Assembly (NCBI GenBank): GCA_900546615.1 | Contig: URDJ01000016.1 | Location: 1 to 55,172 of the forward strand | Length of the DNA: 55,172 nucleotides | Origin: an uncultured Eubacteriales bacterium | GTDB taxonomy: Bacteria > Bacillota > Clostridia > Oscillospirales > Oscillospiraceae | Direction: 5' to 3' | Part shown: positions 6,656-23,564 of the stretch, one piece after another | Numbering within the stretch: the stretch's first letter is position 1 | Layout: every line of letters starts with the position of its first letter | Translations under genes and position numbers: made by a program | The notes under the pieces: generated by a model | Told to the model about the DNA's origin: nothing | The model's database searches: none | Seen by the model: the letters and a program-made list of their open reading frames with translations, nothing else

Positions 6656-6671
6656 AGGGAGCGCATGAGTT

Positions 6672-7367: not shown

Positions 7368-7397
7368 GAAAATATCTGCGTTGAGGAGTGAATCGAA

Positions 7398-8180
7398 TTG
7401 GAGACCCTCTTTAAAAAGGAAAAACTACCCGGTTTCGCAATAGTTACGGGCTCGTCGCGGGGCCTGGGCGCAAATTTTGCGTACAGGCTTGCCAACGACG
7501 GCTACGATGTGCTGATAAACTACAGCTCCGATGCCTCTGAAGCGGACGCGCTGGAGGTGAAGGGGCAGATCGAGCGCGATACCGGCAGGAGAGCCCTGAT
7601 ATGCAAGGCGGACGTGTCCGTGCCGGAGGAATGCACGCGCATGGTAGAGACCGCCTGTGACACTTTCGGCTCTCAATCCGCTATCCTGATAAACAATGCC
7701 GGTATCCACAGGGGAGGCAATTTTGAGGATATACCTCCGGAGACCTACAGCAAAATCATCTATGTCGACCTTATAGGCTGCCTGAACATGTGCAGGGCGT
7801 CCATACCTCATATGCTCGAGGCTGGCGAGGGCGCGATAATCAACATCTCATCTTCGGCGGCGTATGCGCAGTCGTATAAAAACGAGGCGTATGGAACGGC
7901 AAAGGCGGCTCTTTTGGGGCTCACCAAATGCCTTGCGCTGGAGTTTGCCGGGAAAGGGATAAGGGCCAACGCCATCGCCCCGTGCCAGCACGCGACGAAG
8001 ATGGTGGAGGATTTCGCCAGAAACGACCCGGAGAATTTCAAGAAATCGTGCGCCGCGATACCTCTCGGAAGGATAGGGAGGCCGGACGAGCTTTCTGAGG
8101 CGATGTCATACCTTGTCCACGCCAGGTTCATGACCGGGCACTGCATAGCGCACAGCGGAGGCAAGGTGCTGCTCTGCTGA
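7398..8180 (+). CDS. Short-chain dehydrogenase/reductase, catalytically complete
   Basis: The 260-residue protein is a classical SDR with TGSSRGLG (17-24), NNAG (99-102), a serine in SSSAAY (about 151-156) and the catalytic YGTAK (Tyr165, Lys169). It probably oxidises or reduces a secondary alcohol/ketone with NAD(P)H. Family relatives include BaiA-type hydroxysteroid dehydrogenases, dihydrodaidzein reductase and 3-oxoacyl-ACP reductases, and these cannot be separated by eye. The start is TTG at 7398 with GAGGAG nine bases upstream. Its place after the flavoenzyme suggests successive C=C and C=O redox steps on one ring-type substrate, which is inference. Confidence 0.83.
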   Translation: METLFKKEKLPGFAIVTGSSRGLGANFAYRLANDGYDVLINYSSDASEADALEVKGQIERDTGRRALICKADVSVPEECTRMVETACDTFGSQSAILINNAGIHRGGNFEDIPPETYSKIIYVDLIGCLNMCRASIPHMLEAGEGAIINISSSAAYAQSYKNEAYGTAKAALLGLTKCLALEFAGKGIRANAIAPCQHATKMVEDFARNDPENFKKSCAAIPLGRIGRPDELSEAMSYLVHARFMTGHCIAHSGGKVLLC

Positions 8181-8229
8181 ACAATACGCGCTTTTAAGAA
8201 CGGAAACAAGAATAATGGAGGGTGTTATG

Positions 8230-8811
8230 ATGGAAGCAAATAACTATGAGCTGATAATAAAGAGCCTGGAAGACAGGATAACGGGTCTCGAGAAGGCGCA
8301 GAAGGAGGCTCAGGACAGGGAGGAGATCATCCAGAACCAGCTGAAGTACGCCTGGTGCATCGACACTCTGGATTTTGAGACGTTCAAGAGCTGCTTTGCA
8401 GACAACTTCATATTTGACTTTTCGCACAGGGACCCGACGATGGTCGGTCCGTGCACGCCGGACGAGATAGCAAAGAGGTTCAAAAATGTTGTGAGCGGCT
8501 ATGTGGCCACCCAGCATCTGATGTCCAATTTCAAGATAGACATAAACGGCGACAGGGCGATGTGCAGATGCTATCTCAAGGGGTTCCATTACCTGCCGAA
8601 TCTCAACGGGGATTCGTGGAGCGAGTGCATCTCGTATTACACGAACGAATATGCCCGCATCGATGGCCGGTGGAAGATAGTCAATATCAAGATAAATCAC
8701 ATGGCGTGGTACGGCAATTACGATGCGAACACGCAGGCCGGCCTGAACGTCAAGAACGGCACCTGCCCGAAAAGGCCGGATTACAGTTACAAGGATATCA
8801 TGGCGGAGTGA
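8230..8811 (+). CDS. SnoaL/NTF2-like protein, possible dehydratase (BaiE-like)
   Basis: The 193-residue protein has a charged helical N terminus (about residues 6-36) and then a SnoaL-like alpha+beta cone domain. The pattern Tyr40-x4-Asp45 (YAWCID) corresponds to the Tyr/Asp pair near the N terminus of BaiE, the bile-acid 7-alpha-dehydratase. A histidine follows in VATQHLMSNF, but other BaiE residues are not clearly kept. Such proteins catalyse dehydrations, isomerisations or cyclisations on polycyclic substrates. ATG 8230 is preferred since GGAGGG ends seven bases before it; ATGs at 8215 and 8227 are worse placed. It follows the SDR by 49 bp in the same operon. Enzymatic role is a family-level inference. 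Confidence 0.7.
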   Translation: MEANNYELIIKSLEDRITGLEKAQKEAQDREEIIQNQLKYAWCIDTLDFETFKSCFADNFIFDFSHRDPTMVGPCTPDEIAKRFKNVVSGYVATQHLMSNFKIDINGDRAMCRCYLKGFHYLPNLNGDSWSECISYYTNEYARIDGRWKIVNIKINHMAWYGNYDANTQAGLNVKNGTCPKRPDYSYKDIMAE

Positions 8812-8875
8812 ACGGCAGACGTGCCGGCTGCAACATAGATATATGCGGAACCGCTATCTATGAAAGGAGGATATT

Positions 8876-10057
8876 GTGCTTAAAGACAGCATAAAAGTCG
8901 GAATACCGGTAGGCGCGGTATTTGTCGGGATACAAGCCAGCGGCGCCCTCGCGACAGGCTCTTACGGTACGAACTACTTTGCGGCATATGGCGTGCAGGG
9001 CCTGCTGATCGGTCTGTTCCAGGCGCTGTTCCTGTTCGTGTTCTTCTATTGCGGTTTTACCCACACCATCAGCGTGAACAACAGGCTGCCGGAGAGCGAA
9101 AAGGTGTACGATTATTCCTCTCTGTCAAAGGCCCTGTATGGGAAGTTTTCACCGTATCTGTGCCCTGTTTTTGAATTGTGGCAGGTTCTGACGATCATGG
9201 TCACCGGAGCGGTCGTGATTGCTTCGGGAGTAACGATACTGCAGACGTTTTTTGAAATACCGACTCTTCTTGCTTCGCTGCTGTTTTCGGTGATAGTACT
9301 GGCGCTGTCGATATTTGGGGAAGGCGTGGTGCGCAAGGCGTCCACAACGCTGTCGGTCCTGTTCTTTGTGTGCGAGTTCCTGTTCCTGTACATTGTTCTG
9401 AAGCATCGCGGGGATGTGCTTGTACAGATGATACGGGACAATTGGGTACCGGAGAGCTCAAGGGGCATGGCGGTGGGAATATGGAGGATGTTCACATTGA
9501 CCTGCGCCAGCTCGGCCTGGGCGATCGGCATCGGTGCGGTGGCTCAGAAGATGACGAGCAGGAGGCACGCTGTGGCGGCGGCTCTGACGGCCGGCTGCGG
9601 TGCGGCGCTCATCATGGTGGGAACAGCGGTGATAGTGCTGCCGTTCTGCCCGGAGATATTGAGTGAGACGGCTCCGCTGGCAGCCATCGCGTCAAACTTC
9701 ATCGGGGAGCTCGCGCCGGCGCTGGGAACGATCTATTACACGCTTCTGATCCTGGCCCTGATATCAACGGGCGGGCCTGCACTGTTTGTGTTCGCCAGAA
9801 GGTTCGGCAAGCTGGTGCCGGCCAAAGGGGCCTTTAAGAACAGAAGGCTCGTGGACATCATTCTGGTAGTCGGCTGTCTCATGCTGTGCATAGCCCTGTC
9901 GATGTGCGGTCTTACGACGCTTGTACAAAAGGCGTTCCAGTACCTTGGATATATTGCGATGCCGATGTGCATAGTGCCGCTCGTCATAGTCTGGCCCATA
10001 TTGAGGAGACGGGGAATATATCCGGTGGTCTATAAAAAGAAGAAACAGCAGACATGA
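8876..10057 (+). CDS. YkvI-like (COG3949) multi-pass membrane transporter
   Basis: The 393-residue protein has about ten or eleven hydrophobic helices and no signal peptide. Its opening VGIPVGAVFVGIQASGALATG and the interspersed helices recall the YkvI family, which belongs to the APC transporter superfamily. The start is GTG with AAAGGAGG five bases upstream. It is the last gene of the flavoenzyme operon (65 bp after the SnoaL-like gene), giving that operon two transporters. One might import and the other export, or one may carry a counter-ion; neither can be told from sequence. Confidence is good for a transporter, moderate for the family. Confidence 0.65.
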   Translation: MLKDSIKVGIPVGAVFVGIQASGALATGSYGTNYFAAYGVQGLLIGLFQALFLFVFFYCGFTHTISVNNRLPESEKVYDYSSLSKALYGKFSPYLCPVFELWQVLTIMVTGAVVIASGVTILQTFFEIPTLLASLLFSVIVLALSIFGEGVVRKASTTLSVLFFVCEFLFLYIVLKHRGDVLVQMIRDNWVPESSRGMAVGIWRMFTLTCASSAWAIGIGAVAQKMTSRRHAVAAALTAGCGAALIMVGTAVIVLPFCPEILSETAPLAAIASNFIGELAPALGTIYYTLLILALISTGGPALFVFARRFGKLVPAKGAFKNRRLVDIILVVGCLMLCIALSMCGLTTLVQKAFQYLGYIAMPMCIVPLVIVWPILRRRGIYPVVYKKKKQQT

Positions 10058-10204: not shown

Positions 10205-10984
10205 TCAGTCTGCAATTACAATATTGACTCCGGCCCTGGAGATCTTAAGCAGTTCTTCCTCGTCGGCATTACCGTCAGTTATCAAAGTGTCGATCATTTC
10301 GATGCCTGCGCTGATGAAGCTGAACGAGCGGCCGATCTTGGACGAATCGGCTATCAGTATCTTTTCTCCGCTGCACCGGTCGAGCATCATTGAATTGATG
10401 GCTGTTTCCATATAATACGCAGACGTGATCCCGTAATCGAAGGATATGCCGTTAGCGCTTAAAATGCACTTGCTGGCCTTCATTTTTGACAATGCATATA
10501 AAGCAATATCGCCGACAAGAGATTGGGTCTGCGGGTACCTCTCTCCTCCGGTAATAATAAGATTTATACTCTCGCCGCCTTCAGTGGTAGCCATACAGGG
10601 GTTGTTCGTAACGATTTTAACATCGGGACTTGTAATGTATTTCGGCAAAAAAAGAACCGTTGTGCCGGAGTTCACGAAGACGACGTCTTCATTTTCGATG
10701 CGCTCTGCAGCCTTTTTTGCGATTCTTTCCTTTTCCTCCAAATACTTTGCCCGTTTGTCAACGAAATACGGCATTTCTTTGATAAAGGTCTGATTCAGCC
10801 TGGCAGCGCCGTGAGTGCGTTCGATGAGATTTTTTGCCGCCAGGGTCTCAAGATCTCTTCGCACGGTGACTTCGGAGATGTTGAATACGCTGCTGATCTC
10901 TTTAACTGTCATTTGTTCGTTTTCGCGGAGCAAACTGATTATTTTTCGGCGCCGTTCTTCTATGTTAGAATCAAAGTTTCTCAT
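10205..10984 (-). CDS. DeoR-family transcriptional repressor
   Basis: The 259-residue protein has an N-terminal winged helix of the DeoR type (RRRKIISLLRENEQMTVKEI then VTVRRDLETL, about residues 11-50) and a C-terminal sugar-phosphate-sensing domain (SGTTVLFLP, TNNPCMA, TGGERYP, ADSSKIG). DeoR proteins repress sugar catabolic operons and are released by a phosphorylated sugar; UlaR of the Escherichia coli ascorbate operon is in this family. It is divergent from the UlaG/UlaE operon and shares a region with repeated TGAGCAAT half-sites, so it very likely controls that operon and itself. ATG 10984 follows a weak AGGTG. Confidence 0.88.
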   Translation of the reverse strand: MRNFDSNIEERRRKIISLLRENEQMTVKEISSVFNISEVTVRRDLETLAAKNLIERTHGAARLNQTFIKEMPYFVDKRAKYLEEKERIAKKAAERIENEDVVFVNSGTTVLFLPKYITSPDVKIVTNNPCMATTEGGESINLIITGGERYPQTQSLVGDIALYALSKMKASKCILSANGISFDYGITSAYYMETAINSMMLDRCSGEKILIADSSKIGRSFSFISAGIEMIDTLITDGNADEEELLKISRAGVNIVIAD

Positions 10985-11073: not shown

Positions 11074-11132
11074 GCTGCAATTTAAATTAAAGCCACATTC
11101 GTTCATATAATCCAAATATGCATACGTAATTA

Positions 11133-11148
11133 TGAGCAATATTGCTCA
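11133..11148. promoter_or_regulatory. Perfect 16-bp palindrome, candidate DeoR-protein operator
   Basis: TGAGCAATATTGCTCA is a perfect palindrome ending 15 bases before the minus 35 box of the UlaG/UlaE operon. Its arm recurs at 11034. The rest of this 303-bp AT-rich divergent region holds no gene. Confidence 0.6.
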
Positions 11149-11163
11149 AATAATAATTATATC

Positions 11164-11192
11164 TTGACTTTACTCAGAATAAAATGTACTAT
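11164..11192 (+). promoter_or_regulatory. Predicted sigma-A promoter of the UlaG/UlaE operon
   Basis: TTGACT, 17-bp spacer, TACTAT. Transcription would begin near 11199 and leave a leader of about 90 bases before the first ATG. Confidence 0.65.
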
Positions 11193-11287
11193 ATTCGCAT
11201 AAAACGTTCATTTAACATTCGATTTAAAGACATAACAATCGTATATTAGAAAATAATGATCATATATTCAGAAAGGTGACGGAAGAA

Positions 11288-12526
11288 ATGCCAGATTACA
11301 AGAGCATGTCGGCCCATGAATTGACGGAGCTGATACAGGAAAAACTGGATTCCTGGCAAGCGTGGAGGGAGCGGCAGCTTTCGCTTGATGCCGGCTGGGG
11401 AATGGCAGGGGCGTCTGTCGGCAGAGTATACAGGCCGTGGCTGTATTCGATGAGCGCAGACTTCTATCCGAGGGCCAGGGTACACATATCAGGGGAAGAG
11501 ATGGATGAGTTTGAGGAGATCGCTGTGTCGTTGGCTCAGGAAATCTACCACGCGAAGTATGTGGACCTGCACACGATGTCCGGCGGAAACGCGAACAGCG
11601 TGCTGTTGTGCGCCCTTACCGGGAAGGGCGACACGATCATGGCCTTTGAGGACCCGCTGGGCCACCGCTCAATGCGTGAGGACGGCATAGGCGGATTCAT
11701 CGACAGAAATTATGTGCCCATGCCTATTGATGCGGACAACCTGTCGATAGACCTGGAAGGATTCAAAAAGGCGGCGCGCGAGGCAAGGCCAAAACTCATC
11801 ATGCTGGGTTCGGCCATGTATATCTTCCTTGAGCCGTTTAAGGAGATAGTTGAGGTCGCAAGGGAGATAGGGGCTATCGTCAGCTGCGACGTATCGCATA
11901 CGTTTGGGTATCTTCACTGTTCCATGTCGGTGAATCCGTTGGATGAGGGAGTAGATGTGATCCTTGGTGGTACTTACAAGACGATTTGCGGGCCGACGAA
12001 GGGCATGATCTGCACGAACAGCGAGCAGATAAGCGAAAGGCTGCGCGAGGTGGCGCCGAGGATGGTGTTCAATTACAACGCGTGCCTGATACCGGCTCTT
12101 GCGCAGGCTCTGATAGAGCTCAGGACTTACGGCAACGAGTATGGCAACCAGATGATAAAGAATGCCCGTGCGCTGGGTGCGGCGATGAAGAGCGATGGGT
12201 TCAACATGGTGGGTGCGGACAGGAATTATACGGATACGCACCTGCTGGCCGCCAAAATGGACGGCACCGACCGGAAGGGGATCGTCCAAAACCTCGGAGC
12301 CGCCAACATCCTGTGCAGCACGGTACCGTGTGACGAATCGCATTTCTATCTCCGTCCCGCCACCATGATAGTCACCCGCCGCGGTTTTGTGGAGAAGGAC
12401 ATGGCAGCCATATCAAAGATGCTGGCCGAAGTGATATTCAATGGCAACATCGAGGGCGTGAAAAAGCAGGTGGCCGAAATGATGAGCGCCCCTGAGAGAC
12501 ACGTGGTGCATTTTTCTCAGATGTGA
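11288..12526 (+). CDS. SHMT-like fold-type I PLP-dependent enzyme
   Basis: The 412-residue protein has the serine hydroxymethyltransferase layout. It shows a cofactor phosphate region SGGNAN (98-103, compare SGSxAN in GlyA), an Asp201/His204 pair in CDVSHTFG, and the Schiff-base lysine Lys231 in GGTYKTICGPTKG (compare the TTHKTLRGP motif). It is first in a sugar-type catabolic operon and not next to folate genes, so it may act as an aldolase, lyase or transaminase on a hydroxylated amino compound rather than as housekeeping GlyA. ATG 11288 is used with AAAGGTGA upstream; an in-frame GTG at 11276 overlaps that site. Substrate is unknown. Confidence 0.75.
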   Translation: MPDYKSMSAHELTELIQEKLDSWQAWRERQLSLDAGWGMAGASVGRVYRPWLYSMSADFYPRARVHISGEEMDEFEEIAVSLAQEIYHAKYVDLHTMSGGNANSVLLCALTGKGDTIMAFEDPLGHRSMREDGIGGFIDRNYVPMPIDADNLSIDLEGFKKAAREARPKLIMLGSAMYIFLEPFKEIVEVAREIGAIVSCDVSHTFGYLHCSMSVNPLDEGVDVILGGTYKTICGPTKGMICTNSEQISERLREVAPRMVFNYNACLIPALAQALIELRTYGNEYGNQMIKNARALGAAMKSDGFNMVGADRNYTDTHLLAAKMDGTDRKGIVQNLGAANILCSTVPCDESHFYLRPATMIVTRRGFVEKDMAAISKMLAEVIFNGNIEGVKKQVAEMMSAPERHVVHFSQM

Positions 12527-12612
12527 GCAAGCATGCCGTACATGGCGAAGCTCGGGGCTGATGCGTGGACGGCGTGTTGAGTAAGAACAAAAACAAAACA
12601 AGGAGGAAGAAA

Positions 12613-14247
12613 ATGAAAAGACTGATAGCTCTGCTGCTGGCTGTGTGCATGGTGCTTGCGATGAGTGGCTGCGGCAACGAACCCGCGGTGGATGACACGC
12701 CCGACAATACAGCCGAAGCGACGGATGGGGCGCAGGCCGGCAACGAAAGCGGAATAAAGCGGGGCGGGGTGCTGGTGATGCGCCGCGCCGGAGTCACCCC
12801 CATCAACCCCCTGCAGACCATAGCGCCCCAGGGAGACGGCGTGGTCTACGCCATGTTTTTCGAGTGCCTCACGTGGTTTGACGAGAACGACTACACTGCT
12901 CAGCCCTGGCTTGCCGAGAGCTGGGAATACTCGGACGACAGCCTGCAGCTGGATATGAAGCTGATTGAGGACGCTAACTTCTGTGACGGCACGCCGCTCA
13001 ATGCTGAAGCGGTCAAGAAGACCTTCGATTTCTATCTTGACGAGGAGACGGGGCACATCCAGCGCGCTTACATCCAGAATGTGAGCAGCGTGGAAGTTGT
13101 TGACGAGTACACCGTGAGGTTCAATTTTTCCGAACCAGACTCCGGTTTCCTCACTGCGCTCTCTCAGCCGATAGGGTATATCATGGCTCCGGCGGCCATC
13201 GACAAGTATAAGGAGACCCAGGACCCCGAAGTGTTTGCCCGCGAAGGCGGCAGCGGCCCGTTTGTGCTGGAGTCCATGCTGGACGGCGAGAGCTATACGG
13301 CCGTGAAGAACACAAATTATTATCGCATGGGCGAAGACGGCCAGCCGCTGCCGTATCTTGACGGCGCGGTAGTGATGGTGATAGGCGATACAGCTGTTGC
13401 CAGCGCGAACCTTCAGAGCGGCGACATCGATCTTATCGACCGCGTGCAGAGCGTGTCCGACATCGAGACTCTCAGCGCGGACCCCAATATCACGATGCTC
13501 GACATGGCCTTCGCCATGGACCACCTGCTGTATATGAACACCACGAAGGCGCCGTTTGACGATATCAGGGTCCGCGAGGCGATGTGCTATGCGGTCGACA
13601 GGCAGGATCTTATCGATACCCTGGCCGGCGGCGACGGCTATATAACCCCGACGATCATTCTCCCGAACCAGACCTGGTACAGCGACGATATCATACCGAC
13701 CTATACCTATGACCCGGAGAAGTCCAGGGAGCTGCTCAGCGAGGCCGGCTACCCGGATGGGGTCACGGTGGAGCTGTATTACGGTACCTACAGCAATATG
13801 CAGCAGATCAGCGAATTGATCCAGTCTCAGGCGGAGGCTGCGGGCTTCAATATTGAGCTGGTCGGCGTTGACGGCGCCACCAACAAGCAGATCTGGGCCA
13901 GCTACAATGAAGATGCGCCTGCCGGCATGCGTCTCAATGACATCGGTCAGCCGAAGGCGTCTCCGTACATCCAGCTCGAATACATTTTCGGACCCGACGC
14001 TCTGCAGAACTGTTCCAAGTGGTTCGACCCCAGGGTGGGAGAGCTGCTCGACCAGATAAGGGCTGAGACGGATCAGGAAAAGAGGGACGAGTTGTGCTTC
14101 GAGTTCCAGGAGCTTCAGGCCGAGTTCATTCCCATCTGCATGCTCCACACGGTGCCCGGTGTCGCGGCCATGCGCAGCTGGGTCGAAGGCGTGCAGTTCA
14201 ACGGCGAAGGCCTGCCGTATGTGACGGAAGCCTGGCTGAACAAATAA
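12613..14247 (+). CDS. ABC transporter substrate-binding lipoprotein, family 5 (OppA/DppA type)
   Basis: The 544-residue protein has a signal peptide ending in a lipobox-like AMSGC with the lipidated Cys at residue 20, an acidic linker, and a family 5 extracellular solute-binding domain. Family 5 proteins bind peptides, nickel, plant oligosaccharides or opine-type compounds, so the name does not fix the ligand. ATG 12613 has AGGAGG six bases upstream. Two permeases and two ATPases follow, which makes a complete importer. A strong hairpin right after the stop probably keeps the binding protein more abundant than the membrane parts. Confidence 0.88.
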   Translation: MKRLIALLLAVCMVLAMSGCGNEPAVDDTPDNTAEATDGAQAGNESGIKRGGVLVMRRAGVTPINPLQTIAPQGDGVVYAMFFECLTWFDENDYTAQPWLAESWEYSDDSLQLDMKLIEDANFCDGTPLNAEAVKKTFDFYLDEETGHIQRAYIQNVSSVEVVDEYTVRFNFSEPDSGFLTALSQPIGYIMAPAAIDKYKETQDPEVFAREGGSGPFVLESMLDGESYTAVKNTNYYRMGEDGQPLPYLDGAVVMVIGDTAVASANLQSGDIDLIDRVQSVSDIETLSADPNITMLDMAFAMDHLLYMNTTKAPFDDIRVREAMCYAVDRQDLIDTLAGGDGYITPTIILPNQTWYSDDIIPTYTYDPEKSRELLSEAGYPDGVTVELYYGTYSNMQQISELIQSQAEAAGFNIELVGVDGATNKQIWASYNEDAPAGMRLNDIGQPKASPYIQLEYIFGPDALQNCSKWFDPRVGELLDQIRAETDQEKRDELCFEFQELQAEFIPICMLHTVPGVAAMRSWVEGVQFNGEGLPYVTEAWLNK

Positions 14248-14273
14248 CTGCATAGTCCGAATATCGACAGCGT

Positions 14274-14318
14274 GGGGGCTGTTTCGAGACGGCTTCGGAG
14301 CGTTTTGAAACAGCCCCC
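14274..14318 (+). terminator. Intra-operon hairpin (attenuator) after the binding-protein gene
   Basis: GGGGGCTGTTTC (14274-14285) pairs perfectly with GAAACAGCCCCC (14307-14318) and is followed by a T-rich GTGTTTGTT. It sits inside an operon with no obvious new promoter after it, as often seen where binding protein must exceed permease. Confidence 0.6.
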
Positions 14319-14360
14319 GTGTTTGTTCCATACGTTCTCACCGCTGGAAAGGTTGAAGAG

Positions 14361-15314
14361 ATGATAAGTGCAATAATCAGAAAAGTGATCCTGACTGTGC
14401 CTTTGCTCCTGCTGGTCAGTATCGTGATGTTTTCTGTAATATTTCTGCTTCCGGGCACGGCGATAGACACGATACTTTCCGAAGGAGGAAGTGTTGAACA
14501 GCGGGAAGAGCTGGAGGCGAAGTATGGCTATGACTTGCCGATCTATGTTCAGTACGCCAATTGGATAAGCGGTTTTGTACAGGGGGATATGGGCAAGTCC
14601 ATCCTGACCGGACAGCCGGTCGAACGCAGGATCAGCGAGCGGCTTCCTGTGACTTTGGAGCTTATAGCGTTTTCGATGTCGCTTGCAATTCTGGTTGGAA
14701 TACCGATGGGTGTAATAAGTGCGGTAAAGAGGAATACCGTGACAGACTATGTTCTCAGCACTTTTACGATAGTGGGCGTGGCGATCCCGTCGTTTTGGCT
14801 GGGCATACTGCTGATTCTTTTGCTGTCGGTCAATCTTGACATATTGCCAGCTTCGGGATTTGTCCGCTTTTCGCAAAATCCTTCGCAGAACCTTTTGACC
14901 ATGATTATGCCGTCCGTATGTCTTGCGGTATCGCTTGCTGCCCCGATAACCCGTCAGACGAGGAGCGCCATGCTCGATACATTGAACCAGGACTATATCC
15001 TGACAGCGCAGGCCAAGGGCCTGCGCAAGGGGAAAATAGTGTTCAAACATGCGCTGCGGAATGCGCTGGTGCCTGTAATAACTGCGATCACATCTCAGAT
15101 CGGCAAAATGATAGGCGGCGTATTTGTAATCGAGACGCTGTTCCTGCTGCCCGGGATGGGCAAATCGATGGTCGATGCCATTTTCCAGCGCGACTATCCT
15201 ATTGTAATGGCCATCGCAATGGTAGTGGTCACTTCCGTCATGCTGATAAACCTTGCGACGGATATTATCAATATCATTGTCGACCCGCGCATCCGCAGCG
15301 GCGCAAGAAAGTGA
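14361..15314 (+). CDS. ABC transporter permease, OppB/DppB type
   Basis: The 317-residue membrane protein begins with a single helix (MISAIIRKVILTVPLLLLVS), a periplasm-type loop containing TVEQREELEAKYG-like residues, and then a binding-protein-dependent transport domain with about five more helices. The cytoplasmic coupling segment LDTLNQDYILTAQAKGL is typical of OppB/DppB. The ATG at 14361 is preferred over an upstream GTG because the family starts here and AAAGG is eight bases upstream. The next permease begins seven bases after its stop. Confidence 0.88.
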   Translation: MISAIIRKVILTVPLLLLVSIVMFSVIFLLPGTAIDTILSEGGSVEQREELEAKYGYDLPIYVQYANWISGFVQGDMGKSILTGQPVERRISERLPVTLELIAFSMSLAILVGIPMGVISAVKRNTVTDYVLSTFTIVGVAIPSFWLGILLILLLSVNLDILPASGFVRFSQNPSQNLLTMIMPSVCLAVSLAAPITRQTRSAMLDTLNQDYILTAQAKGLRKGKIVFKHALRNALVPVITAITSQIGKMIGGVFVIETLFLLPGMGKSMVDAIFQRDYPIVMAIAMVVVTSVMLINLATDIINIIVDPRIRSGARK

Positions 15315-15321
15315 GGCATAT

Positions 15322-16203
15322 ATGAAGCGCTCACAAAACAATAAAACTGCAAACAGAGGCGGCAGGCTCAGGAAGATATGGACGAAGCTCATAAGGCGCA
15401 AGACATCTCTTTTCAGCATAGTATTCCTGATCATGGTGCTGCTGGTCTCCGTTTTCGGCGGGGCATTTACCCAGGACCCGTTTCAAACTGACACGGACAA
15501 CAAACTTTCACCGCCAAGTATGGAGCACTTGCTCGGGACAGACGAGCTTGGCAGAGACGTGCTCGCGAGGATGGTTCACGGAGGGGGGATATCGCTGTCG
15601 ATAAGTTTGGCCTCGGTATCAATAGCTTTGGTCCTCGGCTCCATACTTGGCCTGACTTCGGGGTATATCGGCGGGAAAACGGATGCGGTGCTGTCGATGG
15701 TCATTGAAGCGATCTGTGCGTTTCCGCAAGTACTGATCGGGCTTCTGCTCGCTGCCATGCTTGGAGGCGGCGGCGCGATAAATGTGATGATGGCGATTGG
15801 TCTTAGTGAAACGCCGTACTTCGCCCGGCTGGTCAGAAGCATGACGCTGTCGATCCGCGAGAGGGAGTATGTGGACAGCGCAGTCACTGCGGGGCTGAAT
15901 CATCTGGAGATAGTGTGGAGGTATGTCCTGCCCAATCTGGTGTCTGTCATCATCGTACAGACGTCCATGTGCATGGCGACCGCAATCATTTCAGAGTCGT
16001 CGCTAAGCTTTTTGGGGATAGGCATACGCGCGCCTTCTGCGAGCTGGGGTTCGCTTTTGGATGTCGGATATGACTATCTGAAGAAGGCCCCATGGATGAG
16101 CATATTCCCGGGCGTTGCGATATTCCTCACCGTGCTTTCCCTGAACTTCTTTGGCGACGGTTTGCGCGATGCACTGGATGTACGGATACGCACGGACGCA
16201 TGA
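15322..16203 (+). CDS. ABC transporter permease, OppC/DppC type
   Basis: The 293-residue protein has a basic cytoplasmic N terminus, a first helix at about residues 30-50, and the DppC/OppC signature HLLGTDELGRDVLARMVHG. A transport domain with a coupling loop (REREYVDSAVTAGL) follows. It forms the heterodimeric channel with the preceding permease. ATG 15322 lies just after GTGAGG. Spacing to the ATPase gene downstream is 18 bp, so the whole importer is one transcriptional unit. Confidence 0.88.
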   Translation: MKRSQNNKTANRGGRLRKIWTKLIRRKTSLFSIVFLIMVLLVSVFGGAFTQDPFQTDTDNKLSPPSMEHLLGTDELGRDVLARMVHGGGISLSISLASVSIALVLGSILGLTSGYIGGKTDAVLSMVIEAICAFPQVLIGLLLAAMLGGGGAINVMMAIGLSETPYFARLVRSMTLSIREREYVDSAVTAGLNHLEIVWRYVLPNLVSVIIVQTSMCMATAIISESSLSFLGIGIRAPSASWGSLLDVGYDYLKKAPWMSIFPGVAIFLTVLSLNFFGDGLRDALDVRIRTDA

Positions 16204-16221
16204 TTTGAAGGGGAAACGGAT

Positions 16222-17211
16222 ATGCAGGATAAGTTGGTAGAAATTAAAAACTTGCGCGTTTCCTTCTACCAGAACGGCGTACTGACGCCGGTGGTCAGGG
16301 ATGTGTCTTTGGACATAATGAATGGAGAAACGCTGGGGCTTGTTGGCGAGTCCGGCTGCGGCAAGAGCATCACATCGAAGTCTGTCATGAGGCTGATACC
16401 GGACCCGCCTGGGAAGATAGAAGGCGGGAGCATCGTGGTTGACGGGCGCGAAGTGCTGGAGATGTCCGAGCGGGAGCTGCAGGATATCCGCGGCAAGCTG
16501 GTCAGCATGATTTTCCAGGAGCCCATGACGGCGCTGAACCCGCTGTACACGTGCGGGAACCAGATATCCGAAGCGATACTGAAGCACAACAGGATATCAA
16601 AGAAGGAAGCCGGACAGAGAGCGATAAAGCTTCTGGAGATGGTCGGGGTGCCGTCACCTGAACGGAGGATAGCCTCGTATCCGCATGAGCTGTCGGGGGG
16701 CATGAGGCAGAGAGTCATGATAGCCATGGCCCTAAGCTGCAAGCCGAAGCTGCTTATCGCGGATGAACCGACGACCGCTCTGGACCCGACCATACAGGCG
16801 CAGATCCTGAGCCTCATAAAGAAGCTGCAGACAAAGCTGGAGATGTCCGTGCTGCTCATAACGCATGATCTTGGAGTCGTTGCGGAGACCTGTGACAGGG
16901 TCGTGGTCATGTATGCCGGGCAGGTGGTCGAGGTCGCGGAAGTACACGAGCTGTTTGCGAGGCCGAAGCACCCATATACCATGGGCCTGCTGAAGGCGAT
17001 ACCGCAGCTGGACAAAAAGGTGGACAGGCTGTACAGCATACCGGGGTCGGTGCCGCGCTTTGACGACATGCCTGCCGGCTGTACGTTTGGGCCCAGATGC
17101 CCGTATTTCAGCGAGGAATGCGGAAATATTGCGCCTGAGCTGAGGGAGGTCTGTGCCGGACACAGCGTCCGCTGCATACGCTCCGGCGAGTTCGGGACCG
17201 GCGATCGTTGA
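16222..17211 (+). CDS. ABC transporter ATP-binding protein, OppD/DppD type
   Basis: The 329-residue ATPase shows Walker A GESGCGKS, Q-loop IFQEPMTAL, signature LSGGMRQR, Walker B LLIADEPT and a switch histidine in LITHDLG. It ends with the oligopeptide-family C-terminal cysteine region (GCTFGPRCPYFSEEC), which in relatives can bind an Fe-S cluster. ATG 16222 has AAGGGGA seven bases upstream. It pairs with the next ATPase to power the family 5 importer encoded here. Confidence 0.9.
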   Translation: MQDKLVEIKNLRVSFYQNGVLTPVVRDVSLDIMNGETLGLVGESGCGKSITSKSVMRLIPDPPGKIEGGSIVVDGREVLEMSERELQDIRGKLVSMIFQEPMTALNPLYTCGNQISEAILKHNRISKKEAGQRAIKLLEMVGVPSPERRIASYPHELSGGMRQRVMIAMALSCKPKLLIADEPTTALDPTIQAQILSLIKKLQTKLEMSVLLITHDLGVVAETCDRVVVMYAGQVVEVAEVHELFARPKHPYTMGLLKAIPQLDKKVDRLYSIPGSVPRFDDMPAGCTFGPRCPYFSEECGNIAPELREVCAGHSVRCIRSGEFGTGDR

Positions 17212-17223
17212 GATGGAGGGCAC

Positions 17224-18219
17224 ATGGAAAAGCTGTTGGAAGTTAAGAACCTGAAAAAGTATTATCCGGTGCGAAAGGGCCTGCTGAAGCGGACTGTGGC
17301 GCATGTAAAAGCGGTGGACGGGGTCAGCTTTGACATATACAAGGGCGAAACATTGGGGCTGGTCGGAGAGAGCGGCTGCGGGAAGACTACCGTTGGAAAG
17401 CTGATCCTGCGGCTGCAAAAGGTAGACGGAGGCCAGATACTGTTCGAGGGCCGGGACCTGCTTGGCATAGCCCGAAGCGAACTCAGGGAGAGAAGATGCG
17501 ATATACAGATCATTTTTCAGGACCCTTACGGCTCCCTGAACCCCAAAATGACGGTGTATGACATATTGTCCGAGGGGATACGAAAGTATAAGCTTTTGCC
17601 CAATGACCGGAAAGATGCAAGGGTGTCCGAGCTGCTGGAGCTGGTCGGGCTTCATCGTTACGACGCACAGAAATACCCCCATGAGTTTTCGGGGGGGCAG
17701 CGTCAGCGGATAGCCGTGGCCAGGGCCTTGTCGTTCAATCCGAAGCTTATCGTGTGTGATGAGCCGGTATCTGCTCTGGACGTGTCAGTGCAGGCGCAGG
17801 TCCTGAATCTGCTGACTGAGCTTCAAAAAAGCATCGGGGTATCGTATTTGTTTATTGCACACGGGATGGCCACGGTCAAGCACGTTTCGCAGAGGGTGGG
17901 CGTCATGTATCTGGGCAAGCTCGTCGAAGTGGCTCAGACCGACAAGCTGTTCGATTCGCCGATGCACCCATACACTCAGGCACTGTTGTCGTCCATACCT
18001 ATAGCAAATCCGGAGCATGTCAAAAACAGAATAATCCTTGAAGGGGAGGTGCCTAACCCAATAAATCCTCCGTCCGGCTGCCGGTTTCATCCAAGATGCA
18101 GGTATGCCGTTGAGAAGTGCCGCTGCGAGGAGCCGTCGCTGGAGGAGCGCCTGCCGGGCCATTGGGTTTCGTGCCACTTCGCAGGCCAGGAACGTTCGGA
18201 GGGCAGCAATGGGGATTGA
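17224..18219 (+). CDS. ABC transporter ATP-binding protein, OppF/DppF type
   Basis: The 331-residue protein has Walker A GESGCGKT, Q-loop IFQDPYGSLNP, signature FSGGQRQR, Walker B LIVCDEPVSALD and the C-terminal cysteine region (GCRFHPRCRYAVEKC). The order D-F after permeases B-C is the standard Opp/Dpp arrangement. The DUF1805 gene starts inside the last codons of this one (ATG 18209 against stop 18217-18219), so the transporter and the catabolic genes are translationally coupled. That coupling is the main argument that they form one pathway. Confidence 0.9.
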   Translation: MEKLLEVKNLKKYYPVRKGLLKRTVAHVKAVDGVSFDIYKGETLGLVGESGCGKTTVGKLILRLQKVDGGQILFEGRDLLGIARSELRERRCDIQIIFQDPYGSLNPKMTVYDILSEGIRKYKLLPNDRKDARVSELLELVGLHRYDAQKYPHEFSGGQRQRIAVARALSFNPKLIVCDEPVSALDVSVQAQVLNLLTELQKSIGVSYLFIAHGMATVKHVSQRVGVMYLGKLVEVAQTDKLFDSPMHPYTQALLSSIPIANPEHVKNRIILEGEVPNPINPPSGCRFHPRCRYAVEKCRCEEPSLEERLPGHWVSCHFAGQERSEGSNGD

Positions 18220-18553
18220 ACTCGAAAAAGTCTATGCCTCCCGCGACCTGAAGGTCACACGAGTCAAACTGAACGGCTCTATATCGACGGGGACTGAGAT
18301 GCGTGTGCCTCAGACAGACAAGTGGGTCGTAACGGTCAAATGTGAAAACGGGATGCTGGGGTGCCGCATATATGACATAGAGTGCGCAGACATGCTTGGG
18401 CTGCCGTTCGCCGTGTTTTCGGCGCCTGACCTGGAGGACATGCTCAGCTCAAAGCCCGTAAAGCTGTCGCGGGAGGCGCTGGAGCTCGGCGCGGGGCATG
18501 ACATGGATGGAGCGGCGATCATAGGGCTGTTCTCGGCTCAGGGGCCGAAGTGA
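18209..18553 (+). CDS. DUF1805 (YunC-like) small protein
   Basis: The 114-residue protein matches the DUF1805/YunC pattern, a small alpha/beta protein with a VVTVKCENGMLGCRIYDI segment followed by FAVFSAPDLEDMLSS and a closing GHDMDGAAII. No function is established for the family to my knowledge. The ATG overlaps the end of the upstream ATPase gene by 11 bases, with CGGAGGG five bases before it. Its placement inside an UlaG/UlaE operon is a clue that this member acts in sugar-acid or lactone metabolism, perhaps as an accessory or small isomerase; that is speculation. Confidence 0.65.
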   Translation: MGIELEKVYASRDLKVTRVKLNGSISTGTEMRVPQTDKWVVTVKCENGMLGCRIYDIECADMLGLPFAVFSAPDLEDMLSSKPVKLSREALELGAGHDMDGAAIIGLFSAQGPK

Positions 18554-18601
18554 CAGCCCTGCCGGAAATGAAAGTGCGCACCTGAAGAAAGGATATATAA
18601 G

Positions 18602-19705
18602 ATGAGCAAGATTGAAGGAATTACCAGAGAATCGTGGATAATGAGCACATTCCCGGAATGGGGCACCTGGCTGAATGAGGATATCGAGTCCGAGGTCGTT
18701 TCCAAGGGCACTGTGGCGATGTGGTGGCTCGGCTGCACCGGCATATGGCTCAAGAGCGACATGGGCACCAATATCACAATAGACCTGTGGTGCGGCAACG
18801 GCAAACGAACGCACGGAGATGACAAGATGAAGATTGGCCACCAAATGGCCAATATGTGCGGGGCAAGGCGCATGCAGCCCAATCTGAGGGCGATACCGTT
18901 TGTGTTCGACCCCTTTGCTTTCAAGAGCGTGGACGCTGTTCTGGCGACGCATTACCATCAGGACCACATGAGTGCGGAGTGGGCGGCGCACGTTATAAAG
19001 AGCGATATGACAACGACAGACGAAAAAGGCCGGGAGATGCCCGTGCCTTTTATCGGGCCGAAAAAGAGCGTTGAGACCTGGGTCAAATGGGGCGTGCCTG
19101 AGGAGCGCTGCATAACGGTGAAGCCCGGGGATGTGGTCAAAGTCAGGGATATTGAAATAATAGCCCTGGACTCTTTTGACAGGACCTGCCTTGTTACGAC
19201 AGATTCGACCGGCCCGGACCGGGAGGAGCTGACCGGGGTCTGCCCGGACAACATGGATGAAAAGGCGGTCAACTACCTGATAAAGACCTCCGGGGGGAAC
19301 ATATATCATTCCGGGGACTCTCATTATTCCATTTATTACGCGAAACATGGCAAGGACTACGACATAGACGTGGCATTCGGCTCGTATGGAGAAAACCCCG
19401 TGGGCATGGCGGACAAGATGACCAGCTGCGACATATTGAGGATGGCCGAGGCTCTTAAGTGCAAGGTCGTCATACCGATACATCACGATGTCTGGACGAA
19501 TTTCAAAGCGGATACCGGCGAGATAAAAGTGCTGTATGAGATGAAAAAAGACAGGCTGGGCTATGCGTTCCACCCGTATTTCTGGGAGGTGGGCGGAAAG
19601 TACACATATCCCACCGACAGGGACAAGCTTGCCTACAACTACAGGAGAGGCTTTGAGGATTGCTTTGAGGCCCCGCAGAACATACCTTTCAGATCCATGC
19701 TGTGA
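18602..19705 (+). CDS. ulaG: UlaG-like L-ascorbate-6-phosphate lactonase (metallo-beta-lactamase fold)
   Basis: The 367-residue protein is closely similar to Escherichia coli UlaG over its full length, as judged from recalled sequence: [61 protein letters not shown]. The metal-binding HxHxDH motif is present as HYHQDH. UlaG opens the lactone ring of ascorbate-6-phosphate to 3-keto-L-gulonate-6-phosphate. The protein carries a small insertion around [12 protein letters not shown] 18602 has AAAGGA upstream. The ascorbate PTS, UlaD and UlaF are missing locally, so the true substrate may be a different phosphorylated lactone. Confidence 0.87.
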
Positions 19706-19716
19706 CGGAGTTTGCC

Positions 19717-20760
19717 ATGAAGATCAGTAAAAGGGTGATATCAGACCTCCAACTGTGCTATTGCGTTGCTCCCGTGACATACAGGGGAGAGGAACACTTT
19801 GTTGTGGCATCCGAAAAAGAATATCCATGTCTGCTGTTTGACCGTCACGGCAAGTTTGCAGAAAAGATATGGGATGCTCCCGGGGGCACGATGTCAATCG
19901 TTCAGGTGCCGGAGACGGACGGGGCTTTTCTGGCGACACACGAGTTTTACTCACCCAATAACTCCAACAGCGCCAAAATCGTTCTTTGCCGCCCGACGAG
20001 CGATGGCTGGAAGGTGACGACTCTCGCGCAGCTGCCCTGTGTTCACAGGTTCGATATCCTGCAAAGAGGAGATACGCGGTATCTTCTGGCCTGCACGATA
20101 AAAGAGAGGCATGAGTATAAGGAAGACTGGAGGTTCCCCGGAGCGGTGTATGCCTGCAAGCTCCCGGACGACCTCTTGGAGAAGGATGAAACATACCGGC
20201 TCCCGCTGCAAATGATAAAGAGCGGCATGAACAAGAACCACGGGTATTCCAGGAGCGTGTACAACTCAACCATGTGCGGCATCGTATCGTCGGACGAGGG
20301 GGTGTTTCGATTCATACCCCCGGAGAATGACGGCGGCCCGTGGCAGATCCGGCAGCTCCTTTCGGAGCCTGCGAGCGATGCGCTGCTTATCGATTTTGAC
20401 GGTGACGGAGAAGACGAGATCATCGTTCTGAGCCCGTTCCATGGGGATACGGTGAGCATCTACAAAAGGGCCGGCGAGAAGTACGGGAAGATATTTGAAT
20501 ATGAGAATAAGCTTGAGTTCGTGCATGCTGTCTGCGCAGGCAGGCTGAACGGAAGAAACATCGCGTTTGTCGGGCACAGGCGCGGCGGACGCGACCTGCT
20601 CGCCGTCAGCTGTGTCGACGGAGAATACAAAGTAGAACTGGTCGATCATGACGTCGGCTCAGCGAACGTGCTGTTCAGCGAGGTGGACGGCAGCGCAGTG
20701 CTTCTGTCTGCGAACCGCGAGATCAATGAGGTCGCATATTATACCATAACCGCCGATTGA
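19717..20760 (+). CDS. Predicted beta-propeller (VCBS/FG-GAP-like) protein of unknown function
   Basis: The 347-residue protein has no signal peptide or membrane segment and consists of repeated short beta stretches. One block reads LLIDFDGDGEDEIIVLSP, an FG-GAP/VCBS-like calcium-binding motif, which suggests a seven-blade propeller. It lies between ulaG and the PfkB kinase with gaps of 11 and 14 bp, so it belongs to the same mRNA. Proteins of this shape may act as lactonases, isomerases or scaffolds; I cannot assign one. ATG 19717 is chosen because GGAG precedes it; a GTG at 19702 overlaps the ulaG stop and has no ribosome site. Confidence 0.6.
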   Translation: MKISKRVISDLQLCYCVAPVTYRGEEHFVVASEKEYPCLLFDRHGKFAEKIWDAPGGTMSIVQVPETDGAFLATHEFYSPNNSNSAKIVLCRPTSDGWKVTTLAQLPCVHRFDILQRGDTRYLLACTIKERHEYKEDWRFPGAVYACKLPDDLLEKDETYRLPLQMIKSGMNKNHGYSRSVYNSTMCGIVSSDEGVFRFIPPENDGGPWQIRQLLSEPASDALLIDFDGDGEDEIIVLSPFHGDTVSIYKRAGEKYGKIFEYENKLEFVHAVCAGRLNGRNIAFVGHRRGGRDLLAVSCVDGEYKVELVDHDVGSANVLFSEVDGSAVLLSANREINEVAYYTITAD

Positions 20761-20774
20761 GGAAAGAAAGCGAG

Positions 20775-21851
20775 ATGAGTTCCTTGCCCAAATATGACTT
20801 TATGAGTTTTGGTGAGCCGAACATCAGGCTCACTCCCCCGGAACATGACCGTCTGGGACAATCCGATGAGCTCCGCCTCGGAATAGCGGCCGCGGAACTG
20901 AACTGCTGCGTCAACATTTCGAACCTCAGCGTCGAAAAACTCATCCCCAAAATGAAGACTGCGTACATCACCAAGCTCGTTGACAACTGGACGGGGAGAT
21001 ATATCGTCAACCGTGCGCAGATGTATGGGGTCGACATGTCCAATATAGTTGTAGAGGAATTTGATAAGATCGGCAACACCAGAAACGGTCTTGCGTTCGT
21101 TGAAGTGGGGATAGGGCCGAGGCCCAGCTACCAGATATACGACAGGGGACATTCTGCCCTGAGCAAGATAAAGCCGGGGGAAATCGACTGGAAAGCGGTG
21201 CTGGATACCCGATGGTTTCATACCACGGGTATCGTGACTGCGCTTGGAGAGCATACCGGCACGGAGGTCCTCTCAGCGCTGAGGGCGGCCAGGGAGAACG
21301 GCGCCGTGACGAGTTATGACCTGAACTATCGCAGTACATTGTGGAACCGTGAAAAGGCGAGGAGCGTCGCAGAGACCCTAATGCCGTATATTGACGTCAT
21401 ACTGGGGAACGAAGAAGACTTTGAGATAATGCTTGGCATAAAGGCGGAGAATACCGACAGCTCATACTCGGCAATAGACCCGGAGAACTATCGCAGGGTA
21501 GCGGAAATGGTCATGGAGAAATATCCTCATATAAGAGCGGTCGGCACATCCCTGAGGGAGGTAAAAACGGCGTGCCTGAACAACTGGCAGGCGTGTCTGA
21601 TGACAAAGAAGGGCTTCTTCATTTCCCCGAAATATGAGAATATCGAGATAAACGACAGGGTCGGCGGCGGGGACAGCTTTGCGTCGGGGCTTATCTGGTG
21701 CATGCTTTCGGGCTGTGAAGATCAGGCGGCCGTGAATTTTGCCGCGGCATATTCGGCCCTGTGTCATACGATACGCAATGACTGGAACCTTATATCGCGC
21801 GAGGAGGCTGAATCGCTGGCGGCGGGAGGCAATGCCCGGGTCAGGAGATAG
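20775..21851 (+). CDS. PfkB-family sugar kinase (KdgK-like)
   Basis: The 358-residue protein opens with MSFGEPNIRLTPPE, like 2-keto-3-deoxygluconate kinases, and has the PfkB C-terminal signature as DRVGGGDSFASG with the catalytic aspartate in GGGD. The DLNYRSTLW segment (compare DxNYRxxLW) is characteristic of the KdgK branch. It likely phosphorylates an aldonate or ketose-type substrate brought in unphosphorylated by the ABC importer, which would replace the phosphorylation normally done by the ascorbate PTS. ATG 20775 gives the family N terminus; TTG 20757 is an alternative. Confidence 0.82.
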   Translation: MSSLPKYDFMSFGEPNIRLTPPEHDRLGQSDELRLGIAAAELNCCVNISNLSVEKLIPKMKTAYITKLVDNWTGRYIVNRAQMYGVDMSNIVVEEFDKIGNTRNGLAFVEVGIGPRPSYQIYDRGHSALSKIKPGEIDWKAVLDTRWFHTTGIVTALGEHTGTEVLSALRAARENGAVTSYDLNYRSTLWNREKARSVAETLMPYIDVILGNEEDFEIMLGIKAENTDSSYSAIDPENYRRVAEMVMEKYPHIRAVGTSLREVKTACLNNWQACLMTKKGFFISPKYENIEINDRVGGGDSFASGLIWCMLSGCEDQAAVNFAAAYSALCHTIRNDWNLISREEAESLAAGGNARVRR

Positions 21852-21871
21852 AAGTATCGGGGAGAAAAGCA

Positions 21872-22738
21872 TTGCTTGGAAAACACTTGCTGGGGATATA
21901 CGAAAAAGCCTTTGACCCCTCGGATACCTGGAGCGTCAGGCTTCAGAAAGCCGTGGAACTGGGCTTTGACTATGTTGAGATAAGCATAGATGAGACGGAT
22001 GAGCGTCTGGAGCGCCTGTACTGGCAGCAGGACAGGATCGAGCAGCTGAGGCGGTGCTGTGTGCGCGAAGGCATTCCGATACTTTCGATGTGCCTGAGCG
22101 CCCACAGAAGGTATCCCTTCGGCAGCGCAAACGCCGATGTCCGGCGGAAAGCCCGGGAGATCATGGAAAGAGCGGTGGAGTTTGCCGTCGCAATGGGCAT
22201 ACGCACCATACAATTGGCGGGTTACGACGTGTACTACGAGGACTCCACCCCGGACAGCCGGAAGGCTTTTGCGGAGGGGCTCAAATGGGCGGTTTCGCTG
22301 GCGGAGAGATATCAGGTCATGCTTGCGATGGAGATAATGGACACGCCCTTTATGAACTCCATTACAAAACATATGGCATATGAAAAAATGCTCAACTCTC
22401 CGTGGTACAGCGTGTACCCGGACCTGGGGAATTTGTCTGCCTGGCCTGAGAACGATGCGGAGGCAGAGCTTAGTGCCGGCGCCGGGAGTATTGTGGCTGT
22501 CCACCTCAAGGATACGCTCAGGGTATCCGAAGGCTTCGGCGGCAAGTTCAGGGGGGTCCCGTTTGGAAGCGGATGCGTCGATTTTGTCAAGCTGTTTTCC
22601 AGACTTGAGTCTCAGGGATACAACGGGCCGTATCTCATGGAAATGTGGCATGAAGAAGGGAAAAGTGATATAGTCGAGACGGGCAGAGCCAAGGCCTGGC
22701 TGGAGGCCGGATTTGCACTGGCCGTAGGCAGGTCATGA
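21872..22738 (+). CDS. ulaE: UlaE/SgbU-like L-xylulose/L-ribulose-5-phosphate 3-epimerase
   Basis: The 288-residue protein matches UlaE throughout: LGIYEKA, GFDYVEISIDETDERL, SMCLSAHRR, IRTIQLAGYDVYY, MLAMEIMD, YPDLGNLSAW, IVAVHLKDT, PYLMEMW. The four metal ligands expected in this TIM barrel (Glu, Asp, His, Glu) lie in those last motifs. UlaE interconverts L-xylulose-5-phosphate and L-ribulose-5-phosphate (the former named L-xylulose/hexulose in older annotation). The start is TTG with GGGGAG seven bases upstream. The 4-epimerase UlaF that would feed the product into the pentose phosphate pathway is not in this operon. Confidence 0.87.
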   Translation: MLGKHLLGIYEKAFDPSDTWSVRLQKAVELGFDYVEISIDETDERLERLYWQQDRIEQLRRCCVREGIPILSMCLSAHRRYPFGSANADVRRKAREIMERAVEFAVAMGIRTIQLAGYDVYYEDSTPDSRKAFAEGLKWAVSLAERYQVMLAMEIMDTPFMNSITKHMAYEKMLNSPWYSVYPDLGNLSAWPENDAEAELSAGAGSIVAVHLKDTLRVSEGFGGKFRGVPFGSGCVDFVKLFSRLESQGYNGPYLMEMWHEEGKSDIVETGRAKAWLEAGFALAVGRS

Positions 22739-22778
22739 CCGGCTTGCTGAGCAATTCAAATGACAGGGGGCAAAAGAG

Positions 22779-23564
22779 ATGAAATACTATGTGGTCGACG
22801 CGTTTACGTCTGAACTATTCAAGGGCAACCCTGCGGGGGTATGCGTTGTGGACAGCTTCCCTCCCGACGACCTGATGCAGAAGATCGCGGCGGAGAATCG
22901 CCTGTCCGAGACTGCGTTCGTTTGCAGGAGGGAGGACGGGGACTATAATTTGCGCTGGTTCACGCCCGGGGCGGAGGTAAACCTTTGCGGGCATGCCACC
23001 CTCGGTACGAGCTATGTACTGGCACGTTTTGTGGAGCCGGACGCGAAGGAGTTCAGATTCCACAGCCTGAGCGGGCTTCTTGTGGCAAAACGCCTGGGAG
23101 ACGATCAGTTCGAGCTGGATTTTCCATCCTGGAAGCCGGAGAAAGTCGAGGTCACCGAGGCGATGCAGAAAGCGCTCGGTTTTGCGCCGGAAGGTGCCTG
23201 GCTGTCGAGGGATCTGATATTCATGGTAGAGTCCGGCGACGTTGTGCAGAACTTCAAGCCCGACTATGAGCTGATAAAAGCCGTACCGGAAGGAATGGGC
23301 ATCTTTCTCACGGCCAGAGGCAAGGACAGCGATTTTGTGTGCAGGACCTTTTTCCCGAAAATAGCTGTAGACGAGGACCCTGTGTGCGGTTCCGCTCACA
23401 GCGAGCTGATACCGCTCTGGTCCGAGATCCTCGGAAAGAAGGAACTCGTGAGCCATCAGCTGTCGCCAAGGACCGGAGAGCTGTTTTGCGTCGATGAGGG
23501 CGAACGGGTGAAAATAAGCGGCAAGGCAGCCCTCTATCTGACCGGCGAGATTTTCGTCAAATAA
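22779..23564 (+). CDS. PhzF-family isomerase
   Basis: The 261-residue protein has the PhzF double-barrel fold signatures: VDAFTSELFKGNPAGV at the start, the catalytic glutamate in LSETAFV (Glu44), GHATLG, and DPVCGSAHS near the C terminus. PhzF enzymes isomerise by proton shuttling, as in trans-2,3-dihydro-3-hydroxyanthranilate, and several act as epimerases or racemases on amino-acid-like compounds. It closes the UlaG/UlaE operon, which would fit a substrate carrying an amino or enol group together with the SHMT-like enzyme. ATG 22779 has AGGGGG eight bases upstream. Confidence 0.82.
   Translation: MKYYVVDAFTSELFKGNPAGVCVVDSFPPDDLMQKIAAENRLSETAFVCRREDGDYNLRWFTPGAEVNLCGHATLGTSYVLARFVEPDAKEFRFHSLSGLLVAKRLGDDQFELDFPSWKPEKVEVTEAMQKALGFAPEGAWLSRDLIFMVESGDVVQNFKPDYELIKAVPEGMGIFLTARGKDSDFVCRTFFPKIAVDEDPVCGSAHSELIPLWSEILGKKELVSHQLSPRTGELFCVDEGERVKISGKAALYLTGEIFVK

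Follow-up and report, generated by a model that had tools for sequence, protein, structure and literature searches.

We find that in the Clostridia sampled in this study a beta-propeller protein, termed PROP, stands in the place where UlaD is missing from L-ascorbate breakdown. Based on its co-occurrence with the other ula genes, PROP can be read as a non-orthologous replacement of UlaD. In the open-licence literature we found no description of PROP in UlaD's place. The window, that is the whole stretch of 55,172 nucleotides analysed here, contains twelve co-directional genes between 11276 and 23564 with small gaps and overlaps; a DeoR gene (10205-10984) lies divergent to them, as judged from open reading frame analysis:

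10205..10984, minus strand: DeoR-family regulator, divergent (DeoRC 127.9 bits)
11276..12526, plus strand: SHMT-like fold-type I PLP enzyme, SHMTL (SHMT model 117 bits)
12565..14247, start probably at 12613, plus strand: family 5 solute-binding lipoprotein (SBP_bac_5 256 bits)
14319..15314, plus strand: ABC permease 1, DppB-like (BPD_transp_1 138 bits)
15253..16203, plus strand: ABC permease 2, DppC-like (position and similarity; 57-58% identity to the counterpart in loci L001 and L003)
16222..17211, plus strand: ABC ATPase 1, DppD-like (63-64% identity to L001 and L003)
17224..18219, plus strand: ABC ATPase 2, DppF-like (69-72% identity to L001 and L003)
18209..18553, plus strand: DUF1805-like small protein (PF08827 17.9 bits, gathering score 29.5)
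18602..19705, plus strand: UlaG, L-ascorbate 6-phosphate lactonase (NF008688 612.7 bits, cut-off 306)
19702..20760, plus strand: PROP, beta-propeller protein of 352 residues, proposed UlaD replacement
20757..21851, plus strand: PfkB-family kinase, proposed ascorbate (core) 6-kinase (PfkB 74 bits)
21872..22738, plus strand: UlaE-type L-ribulose/L-xylulose 5-phosphate 3-epimerase (TIGR00542 369.5 bits, cut-off 272)
22779..23564, plus strand: PhzF-family isomerase (PhzC-PhzF 180 bits; TIGR00654 126 bits, cut-off 76; 45% identity to the PhzF of L003)

Gene calls are open reading frames. Of the 13 proteins, ten were compared with Pfam and nine or ten with NCBIfam, while permease 2 and both ATPases were assigned by similarity to related loci. 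The gene set named in a preliminary description of this DNA is real, since all genes are present in the same direction with the divergent DeoR gene, and UlaG and UlaE score above curated cut-offs. The DUF1805 gene named there is likewise present, but its family label stays below the gathering score; its reading frame is nested in a longer one listed from 18104, the only form given to NCBIfam, and tblastn found no relative of the protein across the ten related loci compared. The regulator falls below the UlaR equivalog cut-off (NCBIfam, 112 vs 244), is assigned at the level of the DeoR family only, and is 58-59% identical to the DeoR protein adjoining the SHMT-like gene in genomes G001 and G003. 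Downstream of the operon, the genes from 23700 onward are housekeeping-looking (NusB/XseA/isoprenoid type, recognised from sequence).

With the E. coli ula regulon (UlaG, UlaABC, UlaD, UlaE, UlaF and UlaR) the window has in common a true UlaG and UlaE, a DeoR-type regulator, and lactone opening followed by 3-epimerisation. Unlike the E. coli system, it has an Opp-type importer, PfkB and PROP instead of the PTS, UlaD and UlaF, and it adds the PLP enzyme, PhzF and the DUF1805-like protein. No tblastn match to E. coli UlaA, UlaB, UlaC, UlaD or UlaF (E up to 5) was found anywhere in the 55 kb. Non-PTS uptake and a kinase feeding the same pentose branch, as proposed for the window, are known from the E. 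coli yia/sgb operon with LyxK, which differs in using a TRAP importer, a reductase, an FGGY kinase and a UlaD paralogue and in having no UlaG.

The relation between PROP and UlaD was followed in two taxon samples, one of 398 genomes from the phylum of G011 (the centre of the sample, itself counted among the UlaG genomes) and one of 397 genomes from the family of G005 (again the centre). UlaG scored over the cut-off in eight genomes of the phylum sample; six of these carry PROP without UlaD over the cut-off, and the remaining two (G422 and G431) carry UlaD without PROP. In the family sample UlaG was found in 37 of 397 genomes, at least ten of which had also been reached through PROP loci; all 37 carry PROP and none carries UlaD over the cut-off. 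The preliminary description had listed the propeller as an added extra. This view does not hold, since PROP is present in every sampled UlaG genome without UlaD (6/6 in the phylum sample, 37/37 in the family sample). Fisher tests of the mutual exclusion of PROP and UlaD, in which kinship is ignored, gave p values of 0.036 for the phylum sample and 0.001 for both samples pooled, and with only two genomes having UlaD over the cut-off the exclusion rests on small numbers. In both UlaD genomes, ulaG, A, C, D, E and F lie together. Surveying more than 100 genomes, a study of 2011 reported that the ulaABCDEF unit occurs in all cases (PMC3219644), which is not true of the genomes in our samples.

No Pfam or NCBIfam model matched the PROP protein of the window at E up to 0.001. 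At the same threshold 1103 homologues were found, and most of the listed ones carry no Pfam domain. Loci were collected as the best 80 of 492 matches in a scan of species-level genomes, and tblastn detected UlaG in 68 and UlaA in 44 of these 80. With E. coli UlaD as query, none of the 80 loci gave a match at E up to 1e-3, and the one match in the E. coli reference was UlaD itself. Clustering of predicted genes over 82 records, the window and E. coli being counted, placed UlaE in 71 of them and UlaF in 44; these genes came from reading frames picked by amino-acid composition, by which some genes were missed (for example PROP in L002), and recounts were made by tblastn. UlaG is absent from 12 of the 80 PROP loci, and eight of the 12 genomes encode it elsewhere, outside the fetched locus, while a search of the other four genomes found no UlaG anywhere. 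Searching 30 whole genomes behind PROP loci with E. coli UlaD returned two matches. Both were rejected as UlaD, as they score better as hexulose-phosphate synthases, with 251 and 181 bits for HxlA (cut-off 200) vs 133 and 102 bits for the UlaD subfamily (cut-off 250).

The fold nearest to PROP is the propeller of aldos-2-ulose dehydratase (AUDH; 4a7k, 4a7y, 4a7z), whose substrates are 2-keto sugars. PROP has an AUDH-type propeller fold at 14% identity, but the AUDH chains are about 880 residues long, the AUDH reaction is a dehydration and not a decarboxylation, and AUDH was not among the PROP profile-search matches at E up to 10. Four histidines (His115, His180, His247 and His275) are invariant, and a conserved His/Arg/Asp set gives the protein an enzymatic look. 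This fold and these residues argue against a helper function of PROP, for instance as mutarotase, isomerase or lactone-binding protein, with the UlaD step carried out by HxlA/OMPDC-type or other unrecognised decarboxylases, or bypassed. We consider such a helper function possible but rather unlikely. Propellers often bind or isomerise sugars, and HxlA-like genes do occur in some UlaG genomes: a UlaD-model match at E up to 1e-20 was obtained in eight of the 37 UlaG/PROP genomes. One of them, G639, has PROP together with a UlaD-like gene just under the cut-off (247.7 vs 250 bits) that adjoins a phosphotriesterase-like gene, as read from sequence. Yet the other 29 of the 37 genomes have no such match, and PROP occupies an otherwise complete ula operon without UlaD, as in G298, a genome from the same order as the UlaD-carrying G431, where the gene order is ulaC-B-A-G-PROP-E-F. 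A further point in favour of a helper is that PROP is not confined to UlaG genomes. It was found in 46 of the 397 family-sample genomes, the 37 with UlaG and nine without, several of the latter PROPs being divergent and one partial, and divergent PROPs are located away from ula genes (L115-L118, L120). Thus, the family has other roles.

The replacement of the PTS by a kinase is well supported. Where UlaG is present, in 68 PROP loci, UlaA and a sugar kinase (FGGY or PfkB) are largely mutually exclusive: 39 have UlaA only, 24 a kinase only, three both and two neither. This count takes in the whole locus, up to 21 kb, rather than the operon in the strict sense, and includes one PfkB of 32% identity (L077, with FGGY). 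The two exceptions are L007, whose binding protein is nearest to a pyridoxal-phosphate binder, in a tie with an iron binder, and L062, which is truncated by a contig edge. In an alignment, the window UlaG keeps 145 of the 148 columns that are invariant across 43 PTS-type UlaG proteins (E. coli included). A different substrate is hence unlikely, and the window enzyme probably acts on L-ascorbate 6-phosphate like its PTS-type relatives. The window PfkB is 79-81% identical to those of L001, L003, L004 and L008 and 67% identical to that of L002, and PfkB proteins in this range of 67-81% are found beside three different import modules. All five close relatives adjoin UlaG, but their loci were selected via PROP. 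In L004 and L008 a beta-glucoside-type PTS (81% alike between them) is combined with GH1, a PfkB of about 80% identity, UlaE and UlaF. If entry routes as unlike as these have one kinase in common, it should act on the product they share, and because GH1 frees the aglycone and UlaG comes next, this product is most simply ascorbate. PfkB is therefore most plausibly a kinase of the core compound common to these routes, probably free ascorbate. The earlier proposal that an unphosphorylated compound is imported and then phosphorylated by a kinase instead of the PTS is borne out by the UlaA/kinase exclusion, the UlaG columns and the different import modules.

What enters the cell appears to be linked to amino-acid chemistry. 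The SHMT-like assignment of the preliminary description is borne out by the Pfam match, but the protein stays under the NCBIfam SHMT cut-off (204.5 vs 335). SHMTL has 21 close homologues (one chimeric), after which identity falls to 32%, and it forms a small separate clade. In common with serine hydroxymethyltransferase, to whose family it matches, it keeps the PLP lysine Lys235, Asp205, His208 and the carboxylate-binding Arg360. However, GlyA residues S35, Y55, Y65, S175, H228 and N347 are replaced in eight of eight aligned clade sequences, in which E57, Y64, Y65, S35 and N347, presumably the folate/serine residues, have become D, V/M, H, G and V. As the clade keeps the PLP and carboxylate contacts and loses the folate/serine residues, the compound taken up probably contains an alpha-amino acid moiety. 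The nearest solved relatives of the binding protein are tied between YliB/GsiB and a Bacillus protein, and it scores below the GsiB equivalog cut-off (152 vs 594). Among PROP loci, a Cys/Met-type PLP enzyme occurs in three of 80 and an ornithine cyclodeaminase/mu-crystallin (OCD) enzyme in two of 80; both types are absent from the window. Thus, the previously suggested amino group gains indirect support from these enzymes and from the SHMTL residues, but the conjugate itself is no more than plausible.

The full set of DeoR, SHMT-like gene, same importer type, UlaG, PROP, PfkB and UlaE co-occurs on one contig in two other genomes (L085+L001 and L113+L003), as a check for recurrence had demanded, and the window gene set is not due to chance. 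The set of G001 comprises DeoR, SHMT-like, OCD family, ABC, Cys/Met PLP enzyme, UlaG, PROP, PfkB, UlaE and UlaF, and that of G003 SHMT-like and OCD genes divergent to the ABC genes, two DeoR genes (one listed ahead of the SHMT-like gene and one after the ABC genes), Cys/Met PLP enzyme, UlaG, PROP, PfkB, UlaE and PhzF. L056 combines the same ABC type and a Cys/Met enzyme with an FGGY kinase, without the SHMT-like gene. Going by equal lengths of the longest contigs, SHMT-like gene and binding protein may also occur together on four further contigs (13764, 5940, 17154 and 8760). The amino-acid enzymes vary between related operons, which fits no single route.

An amino-acid substrate, as suggested by SHMTL and the Cys/Met and OCD enzymes, would also be in line with the absence of any ascorbate role, UlaG and UlaE being recruited for another lactone or sugar-acid phosphate, such as an opine- or Amadori-derived acid phosphorylated by a KDG-type kinase. 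The binding protein matches the opine-binding AgaA and MoaA, and the nearest structure match of PfkB is the KDG kinase 2afb (228 bits). With KDG kinases (2afb and the kinase half of NF041633) PfkB has the fold family in common, but it falls below every listed NCBIfam kinase cut-off (177 vs 440 for the KDG kinase equivalog, 339 vs 700 for the fusion model). A non-ascorbate substrate seems unlikely in view of the conserved UlaG columns, the 80% identical kinases that L004 and L008 combine with a beta-glucoside PTS, GH1, UlaE and UlaF, and the presence of UlaA in 42 of the 68 UlaG-bearing PROP loci. Least probable to us is that the kinase acts after lactone opening and UlaG opens unphosphorylated ascorbate. 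LyxK of the yia operon, which probably phosphorylates 3-keto-L-gulonate in E. coli, offers a precedent, but the columns conserved in UlaG do not differ from those of PTS-fed operons, whose substrate arrives phosphorylated.

On balance we lean towards a PTS-free and UlaD-free variant of the L-ascorbate (ula) pathway, in which every step is a proposal. The Opp-type importer would take up an unphosphorylated ascorbate-bearing compound, probably with an amino-acid part, and the SHMT-like enzyme might free or trim the ascorbate core, with PhzF and the DUF1805-like protein assisting it or acting after it; in relatives the Cys/Met-type PLP enzyme and the OCD-type dehydrogenase might also take part. 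PfkB would then do the job of the PTS and convert the free core to L-ascorbate 6-phosphate, for which the comparison of loci argues strongly. Going by family knowledge and its conserved columns, UlaG would open the lactone to 3-keto-L-gulonate 6-phosphate. In place of UlaD, PROP may decarboxylate this intermediate to L-xylulose 5-phosphate, with a metal probably held by its invariant histidines, as co-occurrence and fold suggest. UlaE is expected to form L-ribulose 5-phosphate, and UlaF or an AraD-type enzyme from outside the window would complete the route. Quite speculative is the more specific idea that the operon consumes an amino-acid conjugate of ascorbate, with SHMTL freeing ascorbate, which would depart from a PLP intermediate in the form of a stabilised carbanion, and a new PfkB-type ascorbate 6-kinase acting on it. 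A candidate would be ascorbalamic acid, a plant compound whose formula equals ascorbate plus dehydroalanine.

If this holds true, standard annotation overlooks one of the steps by which many gut Clostridia break down vitamin C. The PROP family, with its many homologues, would gain a function, and a kinase forming ascorbate 6-phosphate independently of any PTS would be named.

The beta-propeller protein PROP, proposed to substitute for the decarboxylase UlaD, is found together with uptake systems of several kinds, among them a PTS of the beta-glucoside type:

L004, about 11091-17226: operon with PROP, UlaG, the sugar kinase PfkB, UlaE, UlaF, beta-glucoside-type PTS and a GH1 enzyme
L008, 1614-7750: operon with the same set of genes, including the PTS and GH1 enzyme

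Ascorbate glucosides, for example the 2-O-glucosyl-ascorbate for which goji is a source, are possible substrates of both operons. The PROP loci L005, L028, L055 and L060 contain CUT-type ABC importers, FGGY kinase and GH3 enzymes, and this combination also suggests ascorbate glycosides as substrates. A Spirochaetaceae locus has neither kinase nor PTS:

L007, 3421-7307: importer adjoining UlaG, PROP and UlaE

The importer's binding protein comes closest to a pyridoxal-phosphate binder, and an iron binder matches it equally well.

Upstream of the window's operon lies what is a separate cluster:

Window 5387-10057: genes for an MFS transporter, two short-chain dehydrogenases, a SnoaL-like protein and an unassigned membrane protein

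Metagenome protein P0021 joins an SHMT-like first half to a PfkB second half; it probably reflects either a chimeric assembly or a deletion that fused both genes.

Genome G639 encodes PROP and, on a different contig (locus L098), a UlaD-like protein (247.7 bits) whose gene adjoins a phosphotriesterase-like gene; this pair perhaps belongs to another lactone pathway. Divergent relatives (L115-L118 and L120; 27-32% to the window's PROP), from genomes of the G005 family sample (397 genomes drawn by taxonomy), have surroundings in which ula genes are absent, save a weak UlaG-like gene (35%) at L118, pointing to a propeller family with a second role.
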